Assembly (NCBI GenBank): GCA_017617545.1
Contig: JAFZVZ010000014.1
Location: 59,223-123,222 of the forward strand
From: Lachnospiraceae bacterium
GTDB taxonomy: Bacteria > Bacillota > Clostridia > Lachnospirales > Lachnospiraceae
DNA length: 64,000 bases
Direction: 5' to 3'
Numbering within the stretch: position 1 is the stretch's first letter; each line of letters opens with the position of its first letter. A program made the position numbers and the translations under genes. Under the pieces are notes generated by a model. The model was not told where the DNA came from. It saw nothing but the letters and a program-made list of their open reading frames with translations, and made no database searches. Positions 7,764-18,233 of this stretch are shown here, piece by piece.

Positions 7764-9293
7764 ATGATCTGTTCGGTGTTCAGCTTTTCTGTGTCGGGGA
7801 TTGAGGCGTCGGTGATCCGGGTGGAGACGGATGTATCCGGCGGACTGCCGGGGATCGACCTCGTCGGTTACCTGTCGGGGGAGGTGCGTGAGGCGAGGGA
7901 GCGCGTGCGAGTGGCGATCAAAAACTCAGGGTTTCATATGCCCGCAAAGAGGATCACGGTTAATCTTTCACCGGCGGACGAGCGCAAGGGAGGAACGGGG
8001 TATGATCTTCCGATCGCGATCGGAATTTTGTGCGCGTTGGAGATCCTTCCCGCGGAGCTGACGGAAGGATACGGGTTCGTGGGGGAACTCGGTCTGGACG
8101 GAAACGTTCGAGGCGTTCCGGGCATCCTTTCGTGTGTTTATGAGGCGAAGCGTGCCGGCTTTCACTCGGTCATGATCCCCGCCGCAAACATCGACGAGGG
8201 AGCGCTTGTCGAGGGCATCTGCGTGTACGGTGTGGAGTCGCTCGCGGACGCGGTGAGGCATTTTACGGGGACAGGCGGAACGATGGCAGTTCCCGTGAAG
8301 TGGGAATCGTCTGAGGAGCCGGACGGTGGAGGCGATTTCGCGCAGATCCGCGGTCAGTTTCTTGCCAAGAGGGCAGCTGAGATCGCGGTTGCCGGAATGC
8401 ACAACCTCTTGCTTACCGGACCTCCCGGCTCCGGCAAGACGATGCTTGCGAGCAGGATCCCCGGGATCATGCCGAGGATGACGTTTGAGGAGAGCCTGGA
8501 GCTTACAAAAATATACAGTGTTGCGGGCATGCTTCCTGCCGCGGGCGGGATGATGCGAAGCCGTCCGTTTCGCTCGCCGCACCATACGGCGACGATCCCC
8601 GCGCTTGCCGGAGGAGGGCGCATGCCGATCCCGGGCGAGGTATCGCTTGCGACCCACGGAGTTCTCTTTCTCGATGAGTTCCCTGAGTTCCGCAGGGCGA
8701 ACATCGAGGTACTGCGGGAACCGCTTGAGGAGAAACGGATCCATGTGGCACGGCTGAACGGAAACGTGGAATTCCCCGCCAAATTCATGCTCGTAGCCGC
8801 GATGAACCCTTGTCCGTGCGGGTACTATCCCGACCGGAACCGTTGCTGCTGTACGGCGGACATGATCCGTCGGTACCAGGGGAGGATCAGCAGGCCGATC
8901 CTTGACCGGATCGATCTGTGTGCCGCGATGCCAGGGATCCGCGTTCAGGAACTGTCCAATAAGGAGTCGCCCGCGGGGGAGACGAGCGCGAAGATACGAA
9001 AGCGTGTGGAGAAGGCGATCGCCATGCAGCAGAAGAGATACCGCGGCACCTCGTGCCGGTATAACTCCGAGGTGCCGGGTGACATGGCGGACAGGTTGTT
9101 TCATGTGGACCAAGGCGCTTCGGAACTGCTGTCGTTGTACGCTGAGAAAACCGGTTGTTCGGCGAGAAGTTATTACCGGTTAAAACGTGTGGCGAGAACC
9201 ATCGCGGATCTGGAAGGAGCGGAGAAGGTAGAGAACCGTCACATGACGGAAGCGATCGGTTACCGCATGGAGGAGGACGGACATGTCATGTGA
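7764..9293 (+). CDS. comM: YifB/ComM family Mg-chelatase-like ATPase
   Basis: 509 residues. An N-terminal Lon-like S5 fold domain (about 1-190) precedes an AAA+ Mg-chelatase domain with Walker A GPPGSGKT (219-226) and Walker B FLDEF (D304, E305), then a C-terminal Mg-chelatase-associated domain. ComM is a hexameric helicase that promotes branch migration and integration of donor DNA in natural transformation; in Firmicutes the YifB relatives are widespread and less well studied. Its last 11 bases overlap dprA, another DNA-uptake gene, so the two are translationally coupled. The four cysteines in CPCGYY...RCCC around residue 352-372 form a probable zinc site. Confidence 0.93.
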   Translation: MICSVFSFSVSGIEASVIRVETDVSGGLPGIDLVGYLSGEVREARERVRVAIKNSGFHMPAKRITVNLSPADERKGGTGYDLPIAIGILCALEILPAELTEGYGFVGELGLDGNVRGVPGILSCVYEAKRAGFHSVMIPAANIDEGALVEGICVYGVESLADAVRHFTGTGGTMAVPVKWESSEEPDGGGDFAQIRGQFLAKRAAEIAVAGMHNLLLTGPPGSGKTMLASRIPGIMPRMTFEESLELTKIYSVAGMLPAAGGMMRSRPFRSPHHTATIPALAGGGRMPIPGEVSLATHGVLFLDEFPEFRRANIEVLREPLEEKRIHVARLNGNVEFPAKFMLVAAMNPCPCGYYPDRNRCCCTADMIRRYQGRISRPILDRIDLCAAMPGIRVQELSNKESPAGETSAKIRKRVEKAIAMQQKRYRGTSCRYNSEVPGDMADRLFHVDQGASELLSLYAEKTGCSARSYYRLKRVARTIADLEGAEKVENRHMTEAIGYRMEEDGHVM

Positions 9294-10485
9294 AGAATAC
9301 CACGCGATGTGGCTGTGCTGTGTCGTGACCGACAACGACATAAAGCGGAGAATGCTCTCCGCGTTCGGAACGCCCGGAGCCATCTATGAGGCGCCGGGGG
9401 AGGAACTGCAGAGCAAAGCGAACCTCGACGAGACGTTGGTGAAACGCCTTGTGTCGACAAGAACCGCTGAGTATTGTGATCGGCTGCTTCAACGGATCGA
9501 GCGCGATGCGATCACGTTTCTGTGGCATGAGGATGAGGGGTTTCCGAAGAGATTGAAGGAAATCCGGGATGCACCGCTAGGTCTGTTTGCGCAGGGACGG
9601 CTTCCGTGGAAGAACGGAGCAGGCGGCGTTCCTGCGTCACGGAGTGAACTTGCGGTGGCGATCGTCGGTACCCGCCAGTCGTCTCCGTACGGGAATTTTG
9701 TGGCAAGGCAGTTCGGACAGGGCTTCGCGGATGCCGGTATCCCTGTCGTGAGCGGTCTCGCCATGGGGATTGATGCCGCATCTCATCAGGGCTGCCTTGC
9801 CGGGGACGGCTTTCCCGTAGCGGTTCTCGGGTCGGGCATCGGTGCTGCTTATCCGCGCAACAACACGCTTTTGTTCCGCAACGTCATTGACCGCGGATGC
9901 GTCATCTCCGAATACGGACCGGGCGTGCCGGCTTTAGCGCATCATTTTCCGCATCGAAACCGGTTGATCGCGGGGCTTGCCGACGGGGTGGTCGTAGTTG
10001 AGGCGCAGGCGAAGAGCGGAACACTGATCACGGTCGACCGGGCACTCGAACAGGGAAAGAGTGTGTATGTCGTTCCCGGGCGGGTGACGGACAAAAACAG
10101 CATCGGATGCAACCAGCTGATCCGCGAGGGAGCACAGCTTGTCACGGACCCCGGTGAGGTGATGGCGGACCTTGCGGCACAGAGCGGAGTGCCGATTTTT
10201 ACGCGGAACGAAGACGGATGTCTTCGGTTCCTTACGATCGACGGGGAAACGGAACTGCGGAACACTCATAATAAAAAAGAAAAAAAGCCCCTTGCAAGCA
10301 ACGAAAAAATAGTGTATGCTTTTTTGCGTTTAAGCCCGAAACACTTTGATCAGCTGATCTGGGAGTCCGGTCTGACGCCTTCGGAGCTCACGAATGCGCT
10401 GTATTCGCTTGAGCGGGAAGGTCTGGTGGAACGGATTTCTCCGGGTTGCTTCAGTGTCAGGGACACAGGTCTGTATGACCGGTGA
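9283..10485 (+). CDS. dprA: DNA-processing protein DprA
   Basis: 400 residues. DprA binds incoming single-stranded DNA and loads RecA during transformation. A helical N-terminal region (about 1-70) precedes the Rossmann-like DprA fold with VAIVGTRQSSPYG (from residue 125), VVSGLAMGIDAASHQG and VAVLGSGIGAAYPRNN. A C-terminal winged-helix domain (about 335-395) follows. The ATG at 9283 sits 6 bases after AGGAGG and overlaps the end of comM by 11 bases. DprA is conserved in many bacteria not known to be transformable, so competence is possible but not shown. Confidence 0.95.
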   Translation: MSCEEYHAMWLCCVVTDNDIKRRMLSAFGTPGAIYEAPGEELQSKANLDETLVKRLVSTRTAEYCDRLLQRIERDAITFLWHEDEGFPKRLKEIRDAPLGLFAQGRLPWKNGAGGVPASRSELAVAIVGTRQSSPYGNFVARQFGQGFADAGIPVVSGLAMGIDAASHQGCLAGDGFPVAVLGSGIGAAYPRNNTLLFRNVIDRGCVISEYGPGVPALAHHFPHRNRLIAGLADGVVVVEAQAKSGTLITVDRALEQGKSVYVVPGRVTDKNSIGCNQLIREGAQLVTDPGEVMADLAAQSGVPIFTRNEDGCLRFLTIDGETELRNTHNKKEKKPLASNEKIVYAFLRLSPKHFDQLIWESGLTPSELTNALYSLEREGLVERISPGCFSVRDTGLYDR

Positions 10486-10541
10486 GGACCGGACATCGGA
10501 AGCGATGAACGGTTAATCTCATTGCGTGAACGGAGGAAAGT

Positions 10542-12548
10542 ATGTCTAAGTACCTTGTGATCGTGGAGTCGCCTGCCAAAGCGAAGACGATTCAGAAGTT
10601 CCTCGGCAAGGACTATAAGGTTATCGCTTCGGGCGGTCATGTGCGTGACCTTCCGAAGAGTACGCTGGGAGTCGATACCGACAAGGATTTTGATCCGCAC
10701 TATATCACCATCCGCGGCAAGGGAGATCTGCTTGCAGAACTCCGCAAGGAAGTCAAGAAGGCGAAGAAGATTTATCTCGCGACCGACCCCGACCGCGAGG
10801 GAGAGGCGATCTCCTGGCATCTGATGCAGGTTCTGAAGCTGAACCCCAAGGATACAAAGCGAATCACATTTAACGAGATTACGAAAAATGCGGTTACATC
10901 CTCACTTGCAGGAGCCCGCGGTATAAATATGGACCTTGTCGACGCGCAGCAGGCACGACGCGTGCTCGACCGTATGGTGGGTTATGAGATCAGCCCGATC
11001 CTCTGGTCCAAGGTTAAGAGAGGTTTGAGTGCAGGTCGTGTGCAGTCGGTTACTCTGCGCATCATCAGCGACCGTGAGAACGAGATCGCGGCGTTTGACA
11101 GAAGAGAGTTCTGGACGATCGAGGGAAGATTTTTCGACGGAACCCACAAGGAGCCGATCAGCGCGGTATACACCGCGGACGGACATCGTGCGGAGCTTTC
11201 GTCGGAGGCTGAGGCGAAGAAGATCATCGCGGCAGTTGAGGGTGCATCCTTCAGCGTCACCGATAAAAAGTCGAGCGAGCGCCGTCTGAAGGCACCGCTT
11301 CCGTATACGACGAGTACGATGCAGCAGGACGCGTCGAGAAAGCTGAATTACAGCACGCAGAAGACGATGCGTGTCGCGCAGCAGCTGTACGAAGGCGTGG
11401 AGGTCAAGGGACACGGCAGCATCGGTCTGATCACCTACTTGAGAACCGACTCCACGAGAGTCAGTGACGAAGCCGCGAAGATGGCTTCCGATTTCATCCG
11501 CGCGAGATACGGCGAGGAGTTCCTCGGTGTGGAGCGCGATGCATCCGATTCCGGCAAGAAGATCCAGGACGCGCACGAAGCGATCCGTCCTACCTATATT
11601 GATATTACACCGGCGTCCGTCAAGGACCAGCTTTCGAACGAGCAGTTCCGCCTGTACCAGTTGATCTGGAAGCGCTTCATCGCAAGCCGCATGGCGGAGT
11701 GCATCTCGAGCGTGACGACCTTTACGATCGGCGACGGAACGCATACATTTTCCGCGAGCGCCACGAAGAGCGTGTTCGAAGGTTACCGCAGCGTGTACTC
11801 CGAGACCGAGGACGAGAAGGACACGGAGAAGAACGCACGCTACGTGCCTGAGGTCGGCGCGACGTTTGAGCGCGCGGAAGTGGAGGGCGAGCAGCATTTT
11901 ACGCAGCCGCCGGCACACTACACCGAGGCGAGCCTCGTCCATATGATGGAGGAGCTGGGTATCGGCCGTCCGAGTACGTACGCGCCTACGATCACGACGC
12001 TTCTCACGAGACACTACATTGCCAAGGACGGCAAGAGCCTGTTTGTGACGGATCTCGGTGAGGCAGTCAACGAAATGATGAAGAAGGCGTTCCCTTCCAT
12101 CGTCGCGGTGGATTTCACCGCCAACATGGAGCTGCTGCTCGACGGTGTTGAGGAGGGAAGCGTCAATTGGAAGAATCTCATCCGAAACTTCTATCCGGAC
12201 CTTACCGCCGCGGTTGCTTCCGCGGAGAAGGAGCTTGAGTCCGTGAAGATCGCGGATGAGGTGACCGATCAGCCGTGCGAGGAGTGCGGACGCATGCTGG
12301 TCGTCAAATACGGCCCGCACGGAAAATTCCTGGCGTGCCCGGGATTTCCCGAGTGCCGCTTTACCAAGCCTTATGTTGAGAAGACTTCGATTCCTTGCCC
12401 AAACTGCGGCAAGGAACTGATCATTCGCCGTACCAAGCGCGGCAAGCGCTATTACGGCTGCTCCGGGTATCCGGAATGCGAGTTTATGTCGTGGCAGGCG
12501 CCGAAGGGGACGAACGCCGATACATCGGATCGTCCGGACGCAGAGTAA
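10542..12548 (+). CDS. topA: DNA topoisomerase I
   Basis: 668 residues. The Toprim domain carries E9 in VIVESPAKA and D82/D84 in TDPDREGE. The active-site tyrosine is Y299 in ITYLRTDS. Two C-terminal zinc ribbons start at C579/C582 and C619/C622. Type IA topoisomerase relaxes negative supercoils behind RNA polymerase. The dprA-topA order is common in Firmicutes. The usual next gene is codY or trmFO; here a large AroB-AroA-like gene intervenes. A weak hairpin (TCTGCC/GGCAGA, 12567-12582) without a T-tract follows the stop codon, so read-through is possible. Confidence 0.97.
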   Translation: MSKYLVIVESPAKAKTIQKFLGKDYKVIASGGHVRDLPKSTLGVDTDKDFDPHYITIRGKGDLLAELRKEVKKAKKIYLATDPDREGEAISWHLMQVLKLNPKDTKRITFNEITKNAVTSSLAGARGINMDLVDAQQARRVLDRMVGYEISPILWSKVKRGLSAGRVQSVTLRIISDRENEIAAFDRREFWTIEGRFFDGTHKEPISAVYTADGHRAELSSEAEAKKIIAAVEGASFSVTDKKSSERRLKAPLPYTTSTMQQDASRKLNYSTQKTMRVAQQLYEGVEVKGHGSIGLITYLRTDSTRVSDEAAKMASDFIRARYGEEFLGVERDASDSGKKIQDAHEAIRPTYIDITPASVKDQLSNEQFRLYQLIWKRFIASRMAECISSVTTFTIGDGTHTFSASATKSVFEGYRSVYSETEDEKDTEKNARYVPEVGATFERAEVEGEQHFTQPPAHYTEASLVHMMEELGIGRPSTYAPTITTLLTRHYIAKDGKSLFVTDLGEAVNEMMKKAFPSIVAVDFTANMELLLDGVEEGSVNWKNLIRNFYPDLTAAVASAEKELESVKIADEVTDQPCEECGRMLVVKYGPHGKFLACPGFPECRFTKPYVEKTSIPCPNCGKELIIRRTKRGKRYYGCSGYPECEFMSWQAPKGTNADTSDRPDAE

Positions 12549-12658
12549 CACACTTCGCAAACCGGCTCTGCCTGATGGCAGACGGGAATTCGGTGCAGTA
12601 GCGCTGTTGTCGGTGATTCAGCAGAAACTGAGCGTACAATGGCAGCATAAGCGGGGCA

Positions 12659-14953
12659 ATGAATATGGAACAGATTCGGGTGAACGGAAGTCAGCCGTAC
12701 GATCTGTGGTTCGGAAGGGGAGCTTTCGGGCAGCTTACGGAACAGTTGCCTGCGAGTTGTCCGGACACACGATCGGCATGTTTGATCTGCGATGAGACAG
12801 TGGCAGCGTTGTATGCCGAACCGGCGGAGCAGGTGCTTCGCGGGCTCGGATATGCGGTGTCACGCTTTTCGTTTCCGGACACGGTCGATCCGAGGACGCT
12901 TGAGATCTATGAGAAGCTGATCGTTCATCTGCAGGAGACCGATATGCAGAGTAACGGCATACTTGTCGCGATGGGCGGAACCAGAGTGCAACGGCTTGCG
13001 GGATTTGCCGCGGGAACGTTTGGCAATAACACAAAATGGGTTGCTGCGCCGACTACGCTGGCAGGTATGATCGAGCCTCGCACGGTTGAGCGGTACGCGC
13101 TTCGCGTCGGAAACGCAAAGGATGCCGTCGGTGTTGAGAAACCGCCGGTGATCGCGGTGTGCGACACGGAGTATCTGGATACGTTGCCGGATGCCCAGGT
13201 GCGAAGCGGATATGCGCATGTCGTGCGGTATTCCGTCCTTGGATACAGCCGCGTGACCAAGAGCCTTCCGAAGATCCGTGATCTGAAGATCCCGGAGGCG
13301 GGAAGCAGGGCAGAACTGCCCTCGGAGGAGACTGTGCTTTCTTCCGTGCGTGCGGCTGCAAACTGCGAGGAAACAGTGTTCCTTGATTATGCGGGAGAGC
13401 TTGCCACGGCGATCGAACAGGCATCCTCCTTTGAAATCTCACGCGGTTACGCGCTTGCGTCCGCCATGGGTGTTCTTGCGCAGATGTCGGTGAAAGCAGG
13501 GTACTGTGATCGAAAGCGCTACAGGTATCTTGCAACAAGGCTGATGCAGTTCGGCCTGCCGACGGGAACGTCGCTTCCGTGGGAGGAAATCCGGAAATAC
13601 ATTCCTGTGACCTTTGAAACAACCAAGAAGGATGATGACAAAGCGCAGACGGAATCGTGCATCGTTTTGAAGGATGTCGGATGTGCTGCCGTTTCTATGA
13701 CGGCGGAGGAATATGAGAAGAATCTGCGTGGCGCTGTCGCGACGTGCAGGTCAGTCTGCGCCGGATTTGTCAATCCGGAGGAGCTGTACCTGCCGTACTC
13801 GAAGGAACTTGTGATCCGCATGGCGCTCGCATGGTTTCTGGACGGATTTTCCCTGCTGGACCTCACGGAGATGCCCGGCGAGGACATCCGCGCAATGGGC
13901 AGCTGTCTGCGCGAGTTGCTGACCGTGGAAAATCTTGCGCTGCCGTGCGGGGAGAGCGCTACGGTGCTTCGACTGCTGCTTCCGCTGATCGGTGTGATCG
14001 ACCTTGACGATGTACATTTTTCGCTCGGGGCGGGATTGTTCCTGCGCCCGCATGAGGATTATATCCAGCTGCTTCGCGCTCACGGCATGACGATCACGAC
14101 GGATCCCGAAAAGAGGGAGTTTGTCGCGAGCGGCCGTCTTACGCCGGGGGCATATACGATCACGAACCGCAATGCCGCGGAGCAGGTGTGCGGCCTTCTG
14201 TTCACGCTTCCGCTGCTGCACGGGGACAGCACGGTTCTGATCCCCGATAACATGTACCGGAAGAACCTGATTCATATGACCGTCAATATCCTGCACATGG
14301 CAGGTGTTGAGATCAATACGACCGATTACGGGTATTTTGTGCGCGGAGAACAGAGCTACAACCGGTTCGGTTTGCGCGACCTGACACCGGAGAGGGACTG
14401 GTCGCTTGCGGCGATGTTTGAGACACTTTCATATATCACCGGCGAAACGGTTCCGATGGCAGATATGCCGATGGCTTCGATCCAGGGAGAGCGGATCATC
14501 ACGGATTACCTTGAGCAGCTGCGGGAAGCGGCGGAGGAAGGTGAGACGGAAGTACGCATCGACATGGGCAACGTGCCGAACCTGATCCCGTGCGTGGCTC
14601 TTGCCGCGTCGCTCACGGACGGCGTCACGACGACGCTCGCCGGGCTTGAGGTGCTCTCGGACCGAGAGGGGAACCGTCTGCAGAGCATCGCGATGGTACT
14701 CGCGACCCTCGGAGCGGACATCACGGTATCGCGGCTCCCTGAGGAGGAGACGGATATCTACATCATCCGCGGAAGGGAATGCCTCGGCGGAGGCATCGTG
14801 GATTCGATGGGAGACCAGCGGATCGCGATGATGGCGGCGATCGCGGCGTGGGGCTGCGAGCAGCCTGTCACGGTGACCGATTCCGAAGTTGTGGAGCGTT
14901 CGTTCCCCGGATTTTTCGACGAGATCGACAAGATCGCAAAACAGATCGACTGA
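12659..14953 (+). CDS. AroB-AroA-like fusion protein, probable pseudoenzyme
   Basis: 764 residues. The first part (about 1-365) follows the 3-dehydroquinate synthase fold: VAMGGTRVQRLAGFAAGTF matches the family GGGVxxDLxGFxAA segment and APTTL its nucleotide-binding motif. Hand alignment shows loss of all three metal ligands: the AEVIKY glutamate aligns with H187, GHTFGHAIE reads AGELATAIE (245-253), and HGE reads RGY (262-264). The second part (about 375-764) follows EPSP synthase: the GSKS lysine (K382) and some arginines persist (R387, R673, R721), but the SSQ triad is AAE (506-508), the catalytic aspartate aligns with N641 and the DHR histidine is Q720. Domain order equals the first two domains of fungal AROM. 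Function is unknown; a regulator or altered enzyme is plausible. Confidence 0.75.
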   Translation: MNMEQIRVNGSQPYDLWFGRGAFGQLTEQLPASCPDTRSACLICDETVAALYAEPAEQVLRGLGYAVSRFSFPDTVDPRTLEIYEKLIVHLQETDMQSNGILVAMGGTRVQRLAGFAAGTFGNNTKWVAAPTTLAGMIEPRTVERYALRVGNAKDAVGVEKPPVIAVCDTEYLDTLPDAQVRSGYAHVVRYSVLGYSRVTKSLPKIRDLKIPEAGSRAELPSEETVLSSVRAAANCEETVFLDYAGELATAIEQASSFEISRGYALASAMGVLAQMSVKAGYCDRKRYRYLATRLMQFGLPTGTSLPWEEIRKYIPVTFETTKKDDDKAQTESCIVLKDVGCAAVSMTAEEYEKNLRGAVATCRSVCAGFVNPEELYLPYSKELVIRMALAWFLDGFSLLDLTEMPGEDIRAMGSCLRELLTVENLALPCGESATVLRLLLPLIGVIDLDDVHFSLGAGLFLRPHEDYIQLLRAHGMTITTDPEKREFVASGRLTPGAYTITNRNAAEQVCGLLFTLPLLHGDSTVLIPDNMYRKNLIHMTVNILHMAGVEINTTDYGYFVRGEQSYNRFGLRDLTPERDWSLAAMFETLSYITGETVPMADMPMASIQGERIITDYLEQLREAAEEGETEVRIDMGNVPNLIPCVALAASLTDGVTTTLAGLEVLSDREGNRLQSIAMVLATLGADITVSRLPEEETDIYIIRGRECLGGGIVDSMGDQRIAMMAAIAAWGCEQPVTVTDSEVVERSFPGFFDEIDKIAKQID

Positions 14954-15034
14954 ATCAACAGAATCAAAAAGACTGATTAGCAAGATCGACATACAGATTG
15001 ACATAAACCATTTCAAAGTTTCACGGAGGACTCC

Positions 15035-15820
15035 ATGAGCGTCGTTTTACTTGATAAGATCCGCAGGATCAACAACCTCCTGCATGACAAGACCAATGCG
15101 GAGAAGGTTGTATTTTCCGACATCTGCAAAATCCTGGGCGAGATCCTGGGGGCAAATGTGTTCGTTCTCAGCAAGCGCGGAAAGATCCTCGGCGTGGCGC
15201 TTCGCTCGGATGTGATGACACTGCCGAGCCTGCTGCCCGGAGAGGTAGGCAAATTTGCGGATGCGGCACTCAACGAGCGTCTTCTCAACATTCTCTCGAC
15301 CAAGGAAAATATGAGCATGCCGATGCTCGGCTTCGAGGAGGAGCATGCGTCGTCCCTGTTCGGCATTGCATCCCCGATCGATATCGCCGGCGAGCGCCAC
15401 GGAACGCTCCTTTTGTTCCGGAACAAGGAATCGTTCACCATCGATGACATTATCATCAGCGAGTACGCGACGACCGTGGTAGGTCTCGAGATCATGCGCT
15501 CCGTCAACGAGGAGTCGGCGGCGGAGGTGAGAAGCCGTCAGAACGTGCGCAGCGCGATCAACACGCTTTCCTTCAGCGAGATGAGCGCCGTGCGCGAGGT
15601 CGTGAACCATATCAAGGGTATCGAGGGCGTGATCGTCGCCAGCAAGATCGCCGACGAGATCAAGATCACCCGGTCCATCATCGTGAACGCGCTTCGCAAG
15701 CTCGCGAGTGCCGGGATCATCGAGTCCCGCTCCTCGGGTATGAAGGGAACGTACGTGAAGATCGCGAACCCGTATTTCATCGATATCCTGGAGAGCAGCG
15801 CGGCAGAGAGACGCGAGTGA
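15035..15820 (+). CDS. codY: GTP-sensing pleiotropic transcriptional repressor CodY
   Basis: 261 residues, normal length. The N-terminal GAF domain (about 1-155) binds branched-chain amino acids, and the C-terminal winged helix (about 200-255, with ASKIADEIKITRS as the recognition region) binds DNA. CodY represses amino-acid, transport and metabolism genes when GTP and branched-chain amino acids are high. GGAGG lies 8 bases before the ATG. The gene order topA-x-codY-rpsB-tsf is clostridial. It follows the AroB-AroA-like gene by 81 bases without a clear terminator, so the two may be co-transcribed. Confidence 0.96.
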   Translation: MSVVLLDKIRRINNLLHDKTNAEKVVFSDICKILGEILGANVFVLSKRGKILGVALRSDVMTLPSLLPGEVGKFADAALNERLLNILSTKENMSMPMLGFEEEHASSLFGIASPIDIAGERHGTLLLFRNKESFTIDDIIISEYATTVVGLEIMRSVNEESAAEVRSRQNVRSAINTLSFSEMSAVREVVNHIKGIEGVIVASKIADEIKITRSIIVNALRKLASAGIIESRSSGMKGTYVKIANPYFIDILESSAAERRE

Positions 15821-15852
15821 CAGACGAAAAGAAGAGTACTGTTGTTACGGTT

Positions 15853-15876
15853 AACCGCGCAGATCGCGCGGTTATT
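15853..15876 (+). terminator. Weak terminator after codY
   Basis: AACCGCGC (15853-15860) pairs with GCGCGGTT (15866-15873) around a 5-base loop and is followed only by ATT. The weak T-tract makes it leaky or a mere mRNA end. Confidence 0.5.
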
Positions 15877-15961
15877 CGTGCGTAAGAGGCATAAAAGCAG
15901 CTGTTTCGCATGGGAAACACAAGAAATCCGCGAAAAATGCCCGTTTCCCGGGAAAAAGGTC

Positions 15962-15990
15962 TTGCATACTTGAAAATGCTGTGCTATACT
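15962..15990 (+). promoter_or_regulatory. Sigma-A promoter of rpsB-tsf
   Basis: TTGCAT (15962-15967), 17-bp spacer, TATACT (15985-15990). It leaves a leader of about 95 bases before rpsB. Confidence 0.85.
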
Positions 15991-15996
15991 GCCAAA

Positions 15997-16092
15997 GTCA
16001 CAAATCACGCGCTGTCGACGGAGGGTCGGTTCCCTGCGGGGTTTGCCCTTTAGTGGCGGTGCGGAAGAAACAAACCAAATGGAGGTACTGAC
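15997..16092 (+). promoter_or_regulatory. Untranslated leader of rpsB, possible autoregulatory structure
   Basis: The leader is G-rich with short complementary runs (GAGGG with CCCT, GGGG with CCC at about 16021-16050). Long structured rpsB leaders bound by protein S2 are known in several bacteria, so feedback control is plausible. I cannot match it to a defined family by eye. Confidence 0.3.
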
Positions 16093-16848
16093 ATGAGTGT
16101 AATCTCAATGAAGCAGTTGCTGGAGGCCGGTGTACATTTCGGTCATCAGACAAGACGTTGGAACCCTAAAATGGCTCCGTACATTTATACCGAGAGAAAC
16201 GGTATCTACATCATCGACCTGCAGAAGTCTGTAGGTAAGGTTGATGAGGCTTACGCAGCAGTGAAGAACATTGTTGCGGACGGCGGCAAGATCCTCTTTG
16301 TAGGAACGAAGAAGCAGGCTCAGGACTCGATCAAGAGCGAGGCAGAGCGTTGCGGTATGTACTTTGTTAACGAGCGTTGGCTCGGCGGTATGCTGACGAA
16401 CTTCAAGACGATCCGTTCCCGTATCGGCCGTCTGAAGGAGATCGAGAAGATGGCTGCGGACGGTACGTTCGACGTTCTTCCGAAGAAGGAAGTCATCGGT
16501 ATCAAGAAGGAGTGGGAGAAGCTTGAGAAGAACCTCGGCGGCATCAAGGAGATGACCCAGGTTCCGGACGCTATCTTCGTAGTTGACCCGAAGAAGGAGC
16601 GCATCTGCGTTCAGGAGGCTCATTCCCTCGGTATCACGCTGATCGGTATCGCTGATACGAACTGCGATCCTGACGAGCTTGATTATGTTATCCCCGGCAA
16701 CGACGACGCAATCCGCGCTGTCAAGCTGATCGTAGGCAAGATGGCAGATGCTGTCATCGAGGCTAACCAGGGCGAGGAGCTTGTGGACAACACGGCTGAG
16801 GCTAAGGATGAGGCTGTTGAGGAGACCGAAGAGGCTTCCGAGCAGTAA
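16093..16848 (+). CDS. rpsB: 30S ribosomal protein S2
   Basis: 251 residues. The start [20 protein letters not shown] and the [13 protein letters not shown] block are typical of S2. The C-terminal tail (about 229-251) is acidic, as in Lachnospiraceae homologues. S2 binds 16S rRNA at the head-body junction and is needed for S1 recruitment where S1 exists. GGAGG lies 7 bases before the ATG. Codon use shifts to GTT/GCT-rich, consistent with high expression. It is followed by tsf after 92 bases. Confidence 0.98.
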
Positions 16849-16940
16849 TTTTCCGAACAATAAACCGAATACACGTGTCCGGTTTCAGGACCGGATGCAG
16901 TCTTTAATACAGGGAGCAATCCCGGATAGGAGAATATACT

Positions 16941-17870
16941 ATGGCTAACATTACAGCGAGCATGGTAAAGGAGCTCCGTGAGTCGACCGGTGCCGGCATG
17001 ATGGATTGCAAGAAGGCGCTTACCGAGACGGACGGCGATATGGAGAAGGCGGTTGTATGGCTTCGTGAGAACGGACTTGCAAAGGCTGCCAAGAAGGAAA
17101 GCAGAATTGCGGCAGAGGGTATCTGCGCCGCTTACGTTACGGATGATAACAAGGTAGCTGCGGTTGTCGAGGTTAACTCGGAGACCGATTTCGTTGCCAA
17201 GAACGAGAAGTTCCAGGAGTTTGTTGCAAAGGTTGCAAAGCAGGCTGCTTCCACGGATGCCGCTTGCATCGACTGCTTCCTTGCAGAGCCCTGGTGCGAG
17301 GATCCTTCCATCAGTGTGAAGGAGGCTCAGGCTAATCTTGTTGCAGTGATCGGTGAGAAGCTTTCAATCCGTCGTTTCGAGAAGATCACCGCTGAGGACG
17401 GCTTTGTAGTAAGCTATATCCACAACGGCGGCAAGCTTGGCATCCTTGTTCAGATGAAGGGTGAGGCTAACGATGCAACGATCGAGTGCGCGAAGAACAT
17501 TGCAATGCAGGTTTGCGCCATGAAGCCGGCATACGTTCGCAAGGAGGAGATCTCCGCTGATTTCATCGCGAGCGAGACCGACATCATCACGAAGGAAGCA
17601 CTCAAGGAGAACGCTGAGAGCGCTAAGCCGAAGCCGGAGAACATCGTCATCGAGCGTATCGTTCCGGGTCGTCTTGACAAGGAGCTCAAGGAGATCTGCC
17701 TTGTTGACCAGATCTACGTTAAGGATCAGGAGAAGAAGGTTGCAGCTTACGTTGCAAGCGTTTCCAAGGATCTTGACATTGTGAAGTTCGTTCGTTTCGA
17801 GACCGGTGAGGGCCTTGAGAAGCGCGAGGAGAACTTCGCTGAGGAAGTTGCAAAGCAGATGGGTATGTAA
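16941..17870 (+). CDS. tsf: Translation elongation factor Ts
   Basis: 309 residues. The N-terminal UBA-like domain has the signature KELRESTGAGMMDCKKAL, followed by VNSETDFVAKN in the core dimerisation region. EF-Ts is the GDP/GTP exchange factor for EF-Tu. It is co-transcribed with rpsB and ends at a strong terminator. Codon use is again of the highly expressed type. Confidence 0.98.
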   Translation: MANITASMVKELRESTGAGMMDCKKALTETDGDMEKAVVWLRENGLAKAAKKESRIAAEGICAAYVTDDNKVAAVVEVNSETDFVAKNEKFQEFVAKVAKQAASTDAACIDCFLAEPWCEDPSISVKEAQANLVAVIGEKLSIRRFEKITAEDGFVVSYIHNGGKLGILVQMKGEANDATIECAKNIAMQVCAMKPAYVRKEEISADFIASETDIITKEALKENAESAKPKPENIVIERIVPGRLDKELKEICLVDQIYVKDQEKKVAAYVASVSKDLDIVKFVRFETGEGLEKREENFAEEVAKQMGM

Positions 17871-17911
17871 TTTCGACATTTTTTCGAAAAAGTAAAAATA
17901 ATGCTATACGA

Positions 17912-17949
17912 ATGAGGGCTTTTGCAGGAGCGAAAGCCCTCATTTTTTT
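17912..17949 (+). terminator. Strong terminator of rpsB-tsf
   Basis: ATGAGGGCTTT (17912-17922) pairs perfectly with AAAGCCCTCAT (17933-17943), followed by seven T. A short palindrome TTTTTCGAAAAA lies just upstream. Confidence 0.93.
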
Positions 17950-17950
17950 G

Positions 17951-18145
17951 CTTTTTTGGGGAAAATCGATGCCATAATGCATTATGCTATAAAGAGAAGA
18001 GTCAAAACACGGTTCCGCGTGATATTACAGGTCGTATTTGCAAATGTGACACTTTATATGGAATTGTGGTACTGTTTTTTGTCTTTTTTTAACATGATTT
18101 GTGTTCTATTACAGAATAAAACATGAAAAAACTGTGAATTTCTTC
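17951..18145. other. AT-rich non-coding region upstream of the sugar importer
   Basis: About 195 bases without a plausible gene. It contains a 14-bp perfect palindrome CATAATGCATTATG (17973-17986) followed at once by CTATAAAG, which could be an extended -10 of a second promoter. The rest is poly-T/A-rich sequence of the sort that may act as an UP element. I see no riboswitch or small gene. Confidence 0.5.
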
Positions 18146-18174
18146 TTGCAGAGAGTGAAATTGCCTGTTATAAT
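18146..18174 (+). promoter_or_regulatory. Sigma-A promoter of the sugar importer operon
   Basis: TTGCAG (18146-18151), 17-bp spacer, TATAAT (18169-18174), about 85 bases before the binding-protein start codon. Confidence 0.9.
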
Positions 18175-18187
18175 GTCGTCGATGGCC

Positions 18188-18233
18188 ATGCGTAAACCAC
18201 GCATAGGTCAGGACGCTTTGAAAACAATTTCAA
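18188..18233 (+). promoter_or_regulatory. Two candidate operators in the importer leader
   Basis: ATGCGT-5-ACGCAT (18188-18204) and TTGAAA-4-TTTCAA (18218-18233) are perfect inverted repeats just downstream of the expected transcription start. Their position is typical for repressors that block elongation of a sugar-transport operon. No regulator gene lies adjacent, so the binding protein is unknown. Confidence 0.4.

Follow-up and report, generated by a model that had tools for sequence, protein, structure and literature searches.

A fused DHQ synthase-like/EPSP synthase-like protein with replaced active-site residues, encoded between topA and codY in a Lachnospiraceae genus

Introduction

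In fungal AROM (Aro1), 3-dehydroquinate (DHQ) synthase (DHQS) and 5-enolpyruvylshikimate-3-phosphate (EPSP) synthase (EPSPS) are the first two of five domains. Here, we analyze a bacterial gene whose product has the same two kinds of domain in the same order and, by Pfam, only these two: a fused DHQ synthase-like/EPSP synthase-like protein of 764 residues, encoded at 12659..14953 in a 64,000-nucleotide stretch of a Lachnospiraceae bacterium genome (assembly GCA_017617545.1, contig JAFZVZ010000014.1, positions 59,223 to 123,222). We call this whole stretch the window; coordinates below that carry no locus name refer to its forward strand, on which the genes described in it lie. The protein matched the AROM structure 7u5s (E 8.7e-18), but the catalytic residues are missing.

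Monofunctional AroB (PF01761/PF24621) and AroA (PF00275) are homologous to the two halves, including a predicted full EPSPS fold, yet their catalytic and acceptor-side residues are replaced in the fusion. Two other bacterial fusions have the same domain order, one from another family (G609; L098:1480-3819, frame of 779 amino acids) and one from another genus of the same family (G087; L108:1459-3882, 807 amino acids). Unlike the window fusion, both keep canonical residues in both halves and, judged by those residues, show that fusion can occur without loss of the sites. G609 reaches both NCBIfam cut-offs, and G087 reaches that for aroB but not that for aroA (280.6 of 287.25 bits). A single clade of the window fusion with G609 was neither shown nor rejected by approximately unbiased (AU) tests (p-AU 0.134 and 0.333).

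A looser likeness is to fungal AROM-related regulators. The QUTA activator was reportedly recognized as a relative of the DHQS-EPSPS half of AROM by Hawkins et al. in 1993, and a regulator of the QutA kind would presumably carry a DNA-binding domain. The repressors QutR, GaaX, and TanX resemble the last three AROM domains, are encoded beside their activators and, by a working hypothesis, are inactive but bind inducer, as set out in excerpts of PMC10512348. The window protein resembles these regulators in that shikimate enzyme domains are encoded next to a regulator of transcription, a likeness of analogy and not of descent: the fungal repressors correspond to shikimate kinase, dehydroquinase, and shikimate dehydrogenase, whereas the window protein is DHQS-EPSPS-like, bacterial, and without a DNA-binding domain found by Pfam.

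Results

Both halves of the fusion are homologous to shikimate enzymes

The protein comprises a DHQ synthase (AroB)-like half (residues 1-370, 12659..13768), placed by alignment, and an EPSP synthase (AroA)-like half (residues 371-764, 13769..14950), placed by alignment and predicted fold. The open reading frame (ORF) has no internal stop, and its true start is possibly the Met of codon 3 (12665), where the orthologue alignment begins. Pfam EPSP_synthase (126.7 bits, residues 415-755) and DHQ_synthase (48.2 bits, residues 76-182) scored above their cut-offs and DHQS_C under its own (21.2 against 27.6 bits); homology to DHQ synthase holds in both sequence and fold. Orthologues with 61-87% identity occur in five further genomes, and the fusion is no chance ORF. 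An AroB-AroA-like fusion with an intact frame, flanked by topA and codY, had been proposed from the nucleotide sequence (the original prediction), and Pfam, NCBIfam, and the neighboring genes all agree with it.

The NCBIfam equivalogs gave 100.7 bits for aroB (cut-off 305) and 149.5 bits for aroA (cut-off 287.25). As a yardstick, the canonical AroB of the same genome scored 308.5 bits and its canonical AroA 261.8 bits, under the 287.25 cut-off. Because this AroA also falls short, a missed cut-off alone says little, and we dropped these cut-offs as a test of function.

The DHQS site is lost and the EPSPS site carries a new common set of residues

To read the replacements, we aligned the protein with the AroB and AroA of E. 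coli K-12 and with homologues from Clostridia, and DHQS residues were tabulated by E. coli numbering in 65 rows (six fusions and 59 others). We take Glu184, His247, and His264 to be the metal ligands of the DHQS site and Lys142, Lys187, and His251 to be its catalytic residues. All six are present in 59/59 non-fusion rows. The metal ligands, Lys142, and His251 are gone in every fusion, and Lys187 is retained in one of the six (G011). In the window protein, Glu184 is replaced by H187, GHTFGHAIE by AGELATAIE, and HGE by RGY; the predicted loss of all three metal ligands, first read by hand, stands in the alignment, as do the other replacements. The AroB half also lacks the NAD motif, and the lost positions mostly vary among fusions.

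EPSPS residues were tabulated in the same numbering in 70 rows (64 canonical, five fusions, and one odd row). The canonical rows vary only at positions 94, 97, 169, and 336. The five full-length fusions share a set of their own: Lys22, Glu23, Arg27, Glu94, Ala96, Thr97, Arg100, Arg124, Ala169, Ala170, Glu171, Arg197, Leu/Ile200, Asn313, Val336, Arg340, Glu341, Arg344, His/Gln385, Arg386, and Arg411. On the side of phosphoenolpyruvate (PEP), Lys22, Arg124, Arg344, and Arg386 are retained and Lys411 is Arg in 5/5. Ser23, Ser169, Ser170, Gln171, Ser197, Tyr200, and Lys340, which we take to lie on the side of shikimate-3-phosphate (S3P), are replaced in 5/5, as is Asp313. In the window protein, Ala-Ala-Glu 506-508 (14174..14182) stands for Ser169-Ser170-Gln171 on the S3P side, Asn641 (14579..14581) for catalytic Asp313, and Gln720 (14816..14818) for His385. 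These three replacements had been predicted, and all are present; Asn is found in all five fusions that reach position 313, but Gln720 is peculiar to its own genome, with His in the other four of the five fusions reaching position 385, and is either a recent change or an assembly error. The odd row, the AroA of G030 (L033:562-1842), departs from the canonical set at several catalytic positions, scored 425.1 bits with NCBIfam AroA, and has the longest branch; as the most divergent row, it is probably misaligned.

Published work bears on these positions. Excerpts of PMC3411725 link Lys22, Arg124, and Lys411, charged residues of the glyphosate site, with PEP binding, and excerpts of PMC12256929 propose Asp313 and Glu341 as acid/base groups and describe Lys22 as important. 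In Candida Aro1, according to excerpts of PMC9074039, EPSPS activity falls to 1.6% in the Asp715>Ala mutant and to 20.6% in the His796>Ala mutant, and no activity was detected for a DHQS double His mutant. If Asp715 and His796 are assumed to occupy the positions of Asp313 and His385, the fusion would be expected to have lost EPSPS activity, although Asn is not Ala.

The two halves differ in how their family-invariant columns have fared. Columns at least 96% invariant in the canonical rows of the first alignments (24 AroB and 26 AroA rows, leaving out E. coli, G030, and the partial fusion of G020) numbered 61 in each half. In the AroB half, 18 are kept, three uniformly changed, and 40 variable among fusions; in the EPSPS half, 35 are kept, 16 uniformly changed in the five full-length fusions, and ten variable. 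The mostly variable AroB half and the 16 uniform changes of the EPSPS half suggest that the AroB site was released from constraint and the EPSPS site re-specified. The proposal that replaced residues might be conserved among homologues is upheld for the EPSPS half (16/61 uniform), not for the mostly variable AroB half. Two stretches of the AroB half that are not conserved in canonical AroB emerged from the alignment as fusion-specific, residues 60-72 (12836..12874) and a basic block of residues 283-303 (13505..13567). Residues 60-71 and 286-297 within them are 92% invariant in fusions, against mean canonical conservation of 0.44 and 0.37, and new constraint appears to have arisen here where canonical AroB is variable.

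A full two-lobed EPSPS fold was predicted for the EPSPS half, which by this model would have kept its cleft. Full-length prediction from a six-row alignment scored low (predicted local distance difference test 49.5, predicted template modeling score 0.36) and serves as weak support, and matches of this model to whole AROM entries had a root-mean-square deviation of about 15. Of the two folds predicted to be complete, that of the EPSPS half was recovered, whereas in the AroB half the structure of the C-terminal domain is unconfirmed.

Both halves are under purifying selection

Pairwise ratios of nonsynonymous to synonymous change (dN/dS) were 0.17-0.35 for the AroB half and 0.06-0.24 for the EPSPS half, with one pair per half lacking a finite dS and most dS values near saturation. 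For the close pair G000/G020 (dS 0.59 and 0.83), dN/dS was 0.17 and 0.06. Both halves are under purifying selection, as had been anticipated from the open frame.

Separate shikimate genes and descent

The genome (2.73 Mb, 97.6% complete) carries a separate shikimate operon on contig C35, the fusion being on contig C28. The operon encodes chorismate mutase-prephenate dehydratase, AroB, chorismate synthase, a shikimate dehydrogenase-shikimate kinase fusion, AroA, a GNAT acetyltransferase, prephenate dehydrogenase, and 3-deoxy-D-arabino-heptulosonate 7-phosphate synthase; the GNAT gene lies within it at L047:12333-12824. The AroA encoded there shows the residue set most common in Clostridia, and the AroB retains its metal ligands and catalytic residues; the separate, intact aroB and aroA that the original prediction had proposed to look for are thus both on C35. 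Shikimate operons of two kinds occur in the genus (compared in L047, L063, and L064 versus L053-L058): in one, aroE and aroK are fused and aroB and aroA stand apart (L047, L063); in the other, aroB and aroA are adjacent. With the window protein as query (E<=1e-8), no genome had both kinds beyond the fusion itself.

In trees, both halves fall in an AroB/AroA clade with adjacent pairs of the genus and of other groups, away from the C35 pair of their own genome (support 100/98 for 20 AroA rows and 99/97 for 23 AroB rows). The adjacent pairs of G483 and G538 lie outside this clade, and G006 and G017 lie inside it with AroB only. The fusion stems are very long, with 3.37 and 2.64 changes per site for the two halves. 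Origin from the C35 operon type was rejected, as AU tests excluded one clade with it (p 0.022 for AroA and 0.043 for AroB, uncorrected, with groups picked after the trees were seen); given the long branches, we regard this as evidence of moderate weight. A nearer placement beside the congeneric adjacent pairs is unsupported (84/76 and 64/9). From these trees, we infer that the fusion gene descends from an aroB-aroA pair.

The fusion occupies one site in part of the genus

Six of the 22 genomes of the genus have the fusion (G000, G005, G009, G011, G014, and G020), that of G020 being partial, truncated by the end of its contig. In all five genomes with both sides readable, the fusion sits between topA and codY, separated from topA by -26 to 110 bases and from codY by 25 to 91 bases, and topA and codY are direct neighbors in all 16 fusion-less genomes (G001 among them by tblastn). 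The most similar codY genes (88-100%; next 81%) are those of five fusion genomes; codY of G020 was not found. The simple reading, by parsimony, is that the gene was inserted once at the topA-codY junction, in part of the genus.

In the window, topA (10542..12548; Pfam topoisomerase domains) is preceded by dprA, and codY (15035..15820; Pfam CodY GAF-like and helix-turn-helix domains) has GGAGG at 15025-15029 ahead of its ATG. The string GGGGC at 12653-12657 recurs shortly before the fusion start in five topA-fusion gaps (the window, L048, L049, L051, and L052) and may be part of a ribosome binding site. A promoter scan had no power (three sites found versus 3.8 expected), and Rfam gave no match up to E 0.5 in 9000-18200.

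Beyond the genus, a search at E<=1e-52 matched two of 397 family genomes, the fusion's own and G133, in which the match is two adjacent genes. A profile search matched, own genome included, 11/397 family, 10/295 order, and 45/391 class genomes, in samples that overlap. ORFs were inspected for 10/10 family, 9/9 order, and 29/44 class matches other than the own genome; apart from the single-frame fusions of G609 and G087, the two genes are separate in these matches, or the available sequence has AroA only. In the other 15 class matches, the frames run to 390-467 amino acids, too short for a fusion. A single-protein scan of a wider contig collection gave no match, and an alignment scan by two short peptide patterns, which could miss distant fusions, found six loci: the five other fusion genomes and one 21% AroB-like match. 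No fusion was found in a viral contig collection; three contigs of that collection (L146, L147, and L148) carry one AroA-like (25%) and two AroB-like (39% and 31%) genes.

Discussion

We put at roughly one half the probability that the fusion is an exapted, probably non-catalytic ligand-binding protein, with CodY as the first candidate partner. The retained PEP-side residues, the fixed new subsite, the acid/base loss, and the fungal precedent point to this reading, and a PEP-side cleft joined to a new fixed second subsite, with one acid/base residue lost, would suit a binder better than a transferase. An aroB-aroA pair would have fused and been inserted between topA and codY in part of the genus, in which genomes with the fusion would carry a further aroB and aroA outside this locus. 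A burst of change would then have left the AroB half as a scaffold that has new conserved blocks and no catalytic site. In the EPSPS half, whose cleft is predicted to be kept, most PEP-side residues remain (Lys22, Arg124, Glu341, Arg344, and Arg386, with Lys411 as Arg), and the S3P side is rebuilt and fixed, with Asn for Asp313. DHQS and EPSPS chemistry would most likely be gone; the EPSPS cleft may instead hold a small, negatively charged metabolite, such as PEP or a phosphorylated acid, and its binding may be relayed by way of the conserved blocks to a partner, for which CodY is the first candidate. A speculative extension by analogy, which we think doubtful, is that fusion, insertion beside codY, and a rapid refit of the cleft produced a bacterial counterpart of the fungal AROM-related regulators, a subunit that senses a metabolite and links the state of PEP or of the shikimate pathway to control by CodY (or of topoisomerase). 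The original suggestion of a sensor or of a new reaction is partly supported; the AroB changes form no fixed new set.

Several observations weigh against a ligand-binding partner of CodY. First, the link to CodY is drawn from gene order, and neighborhood is no proof. Second, by-eye comparison found no CodY change specific to fusion genomes beyond phylogeny. Third, a terminator-like stem with a T-rich tail (14893-14906) lies within the final codons of the fusion gene, ahead of codY; if real, it could end the transcript there and would speak against a shared transcript, but the same scan also yields chance sites (nine found versus 5.6 expected). Fourth, Pfam gave no match to a DNA-binding domain in the fusion at E up to 1, a search that a new kind of domain would escape. 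Finally, the PEP-side residues and Glu341 would suit an enzyme too.

This last point is the core of the strongest alternative, which we nevertheless judge unlikely: a working enzyme in which the EPSPS half moves the enolpyruvyl group of PEP to or from another acceptor, or acts on a PEP-like acid, with the AroB half as scaffold. The acceptor side is one fixed new set in 5/5 full-length fusions, and the EPSPS fold class includes MurA, which uses another acceptor. However, the acid/base group proposed at Asp313 in excerpts of PMC12256929 is Asn in 5/5, and His385 is Gln in the own genome. The direct neighbors dprA, topA, and codY are also non-biosynthetic.

Less probable still is a partner or decoy of canonical shikimate enzymes that pairs with intact AroB or AroA, or with another enzyme, and tunes its activity. 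AroB enzymes dimerize, and dead homologues can regulate live ones; moreover, all six fusion genomes have a distant AroA-type match on another contig (only those of G000 and G005 are in the trees). Such distant matches, and no others, are also found in G002, G007, G010, G012, and G019, which have no fusion; in addition, the fusion is unlinked to the operon of its own genome and stands away from the present pair in trees. A diverged active isozyme, such as an EPSPS insensitive to glyphosate or another inhibitor, is very improbable: Gly96 is Ala in 5/5 full-length fusions, a change listed for glyphosate tolerance (excerpts of PMC3411725; title of Protein Data Bank entry 1mi4), but Ser23, Ser169, Ser170, Gln171, Ser197, Tyr200, Asp313, and Lys340 have changed too. 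Chance retention of a decaying relic next to essential genes would account for the 40/61 variable columns of the AroB half, but the open frame of all six fusions (that of G020 partial), the dN/dS values far below 1 for each half, and the new invariant blocks make it the least credible of all and already disfavored.

A literature search, by titles and the starts of abstracts and with most subscription papers outside it, returned no bacterial protein of this kind. The reuse of shikimate enzyme domains without catalysis has already been proposed for fungi. Two adjacent catalytic domains appear to have been turned together into something else, one site being released and the other replaced and fixed as firmly as before, and with relatives and fusions that have canonical residues, as well as genomes with the site empty, available for comparison, the steps of this change are testable. 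As an enzyme, the protein would be enolpyruvyl-transferase-like and use some acceptor in place of shikimate-3-phosphate. As a sensor, it would mean that shikimate enzyme domains were recruited for regulation independently in bacteria and in fungi, and it would add a further input to CodY-type control in these Lachnospiraceae.
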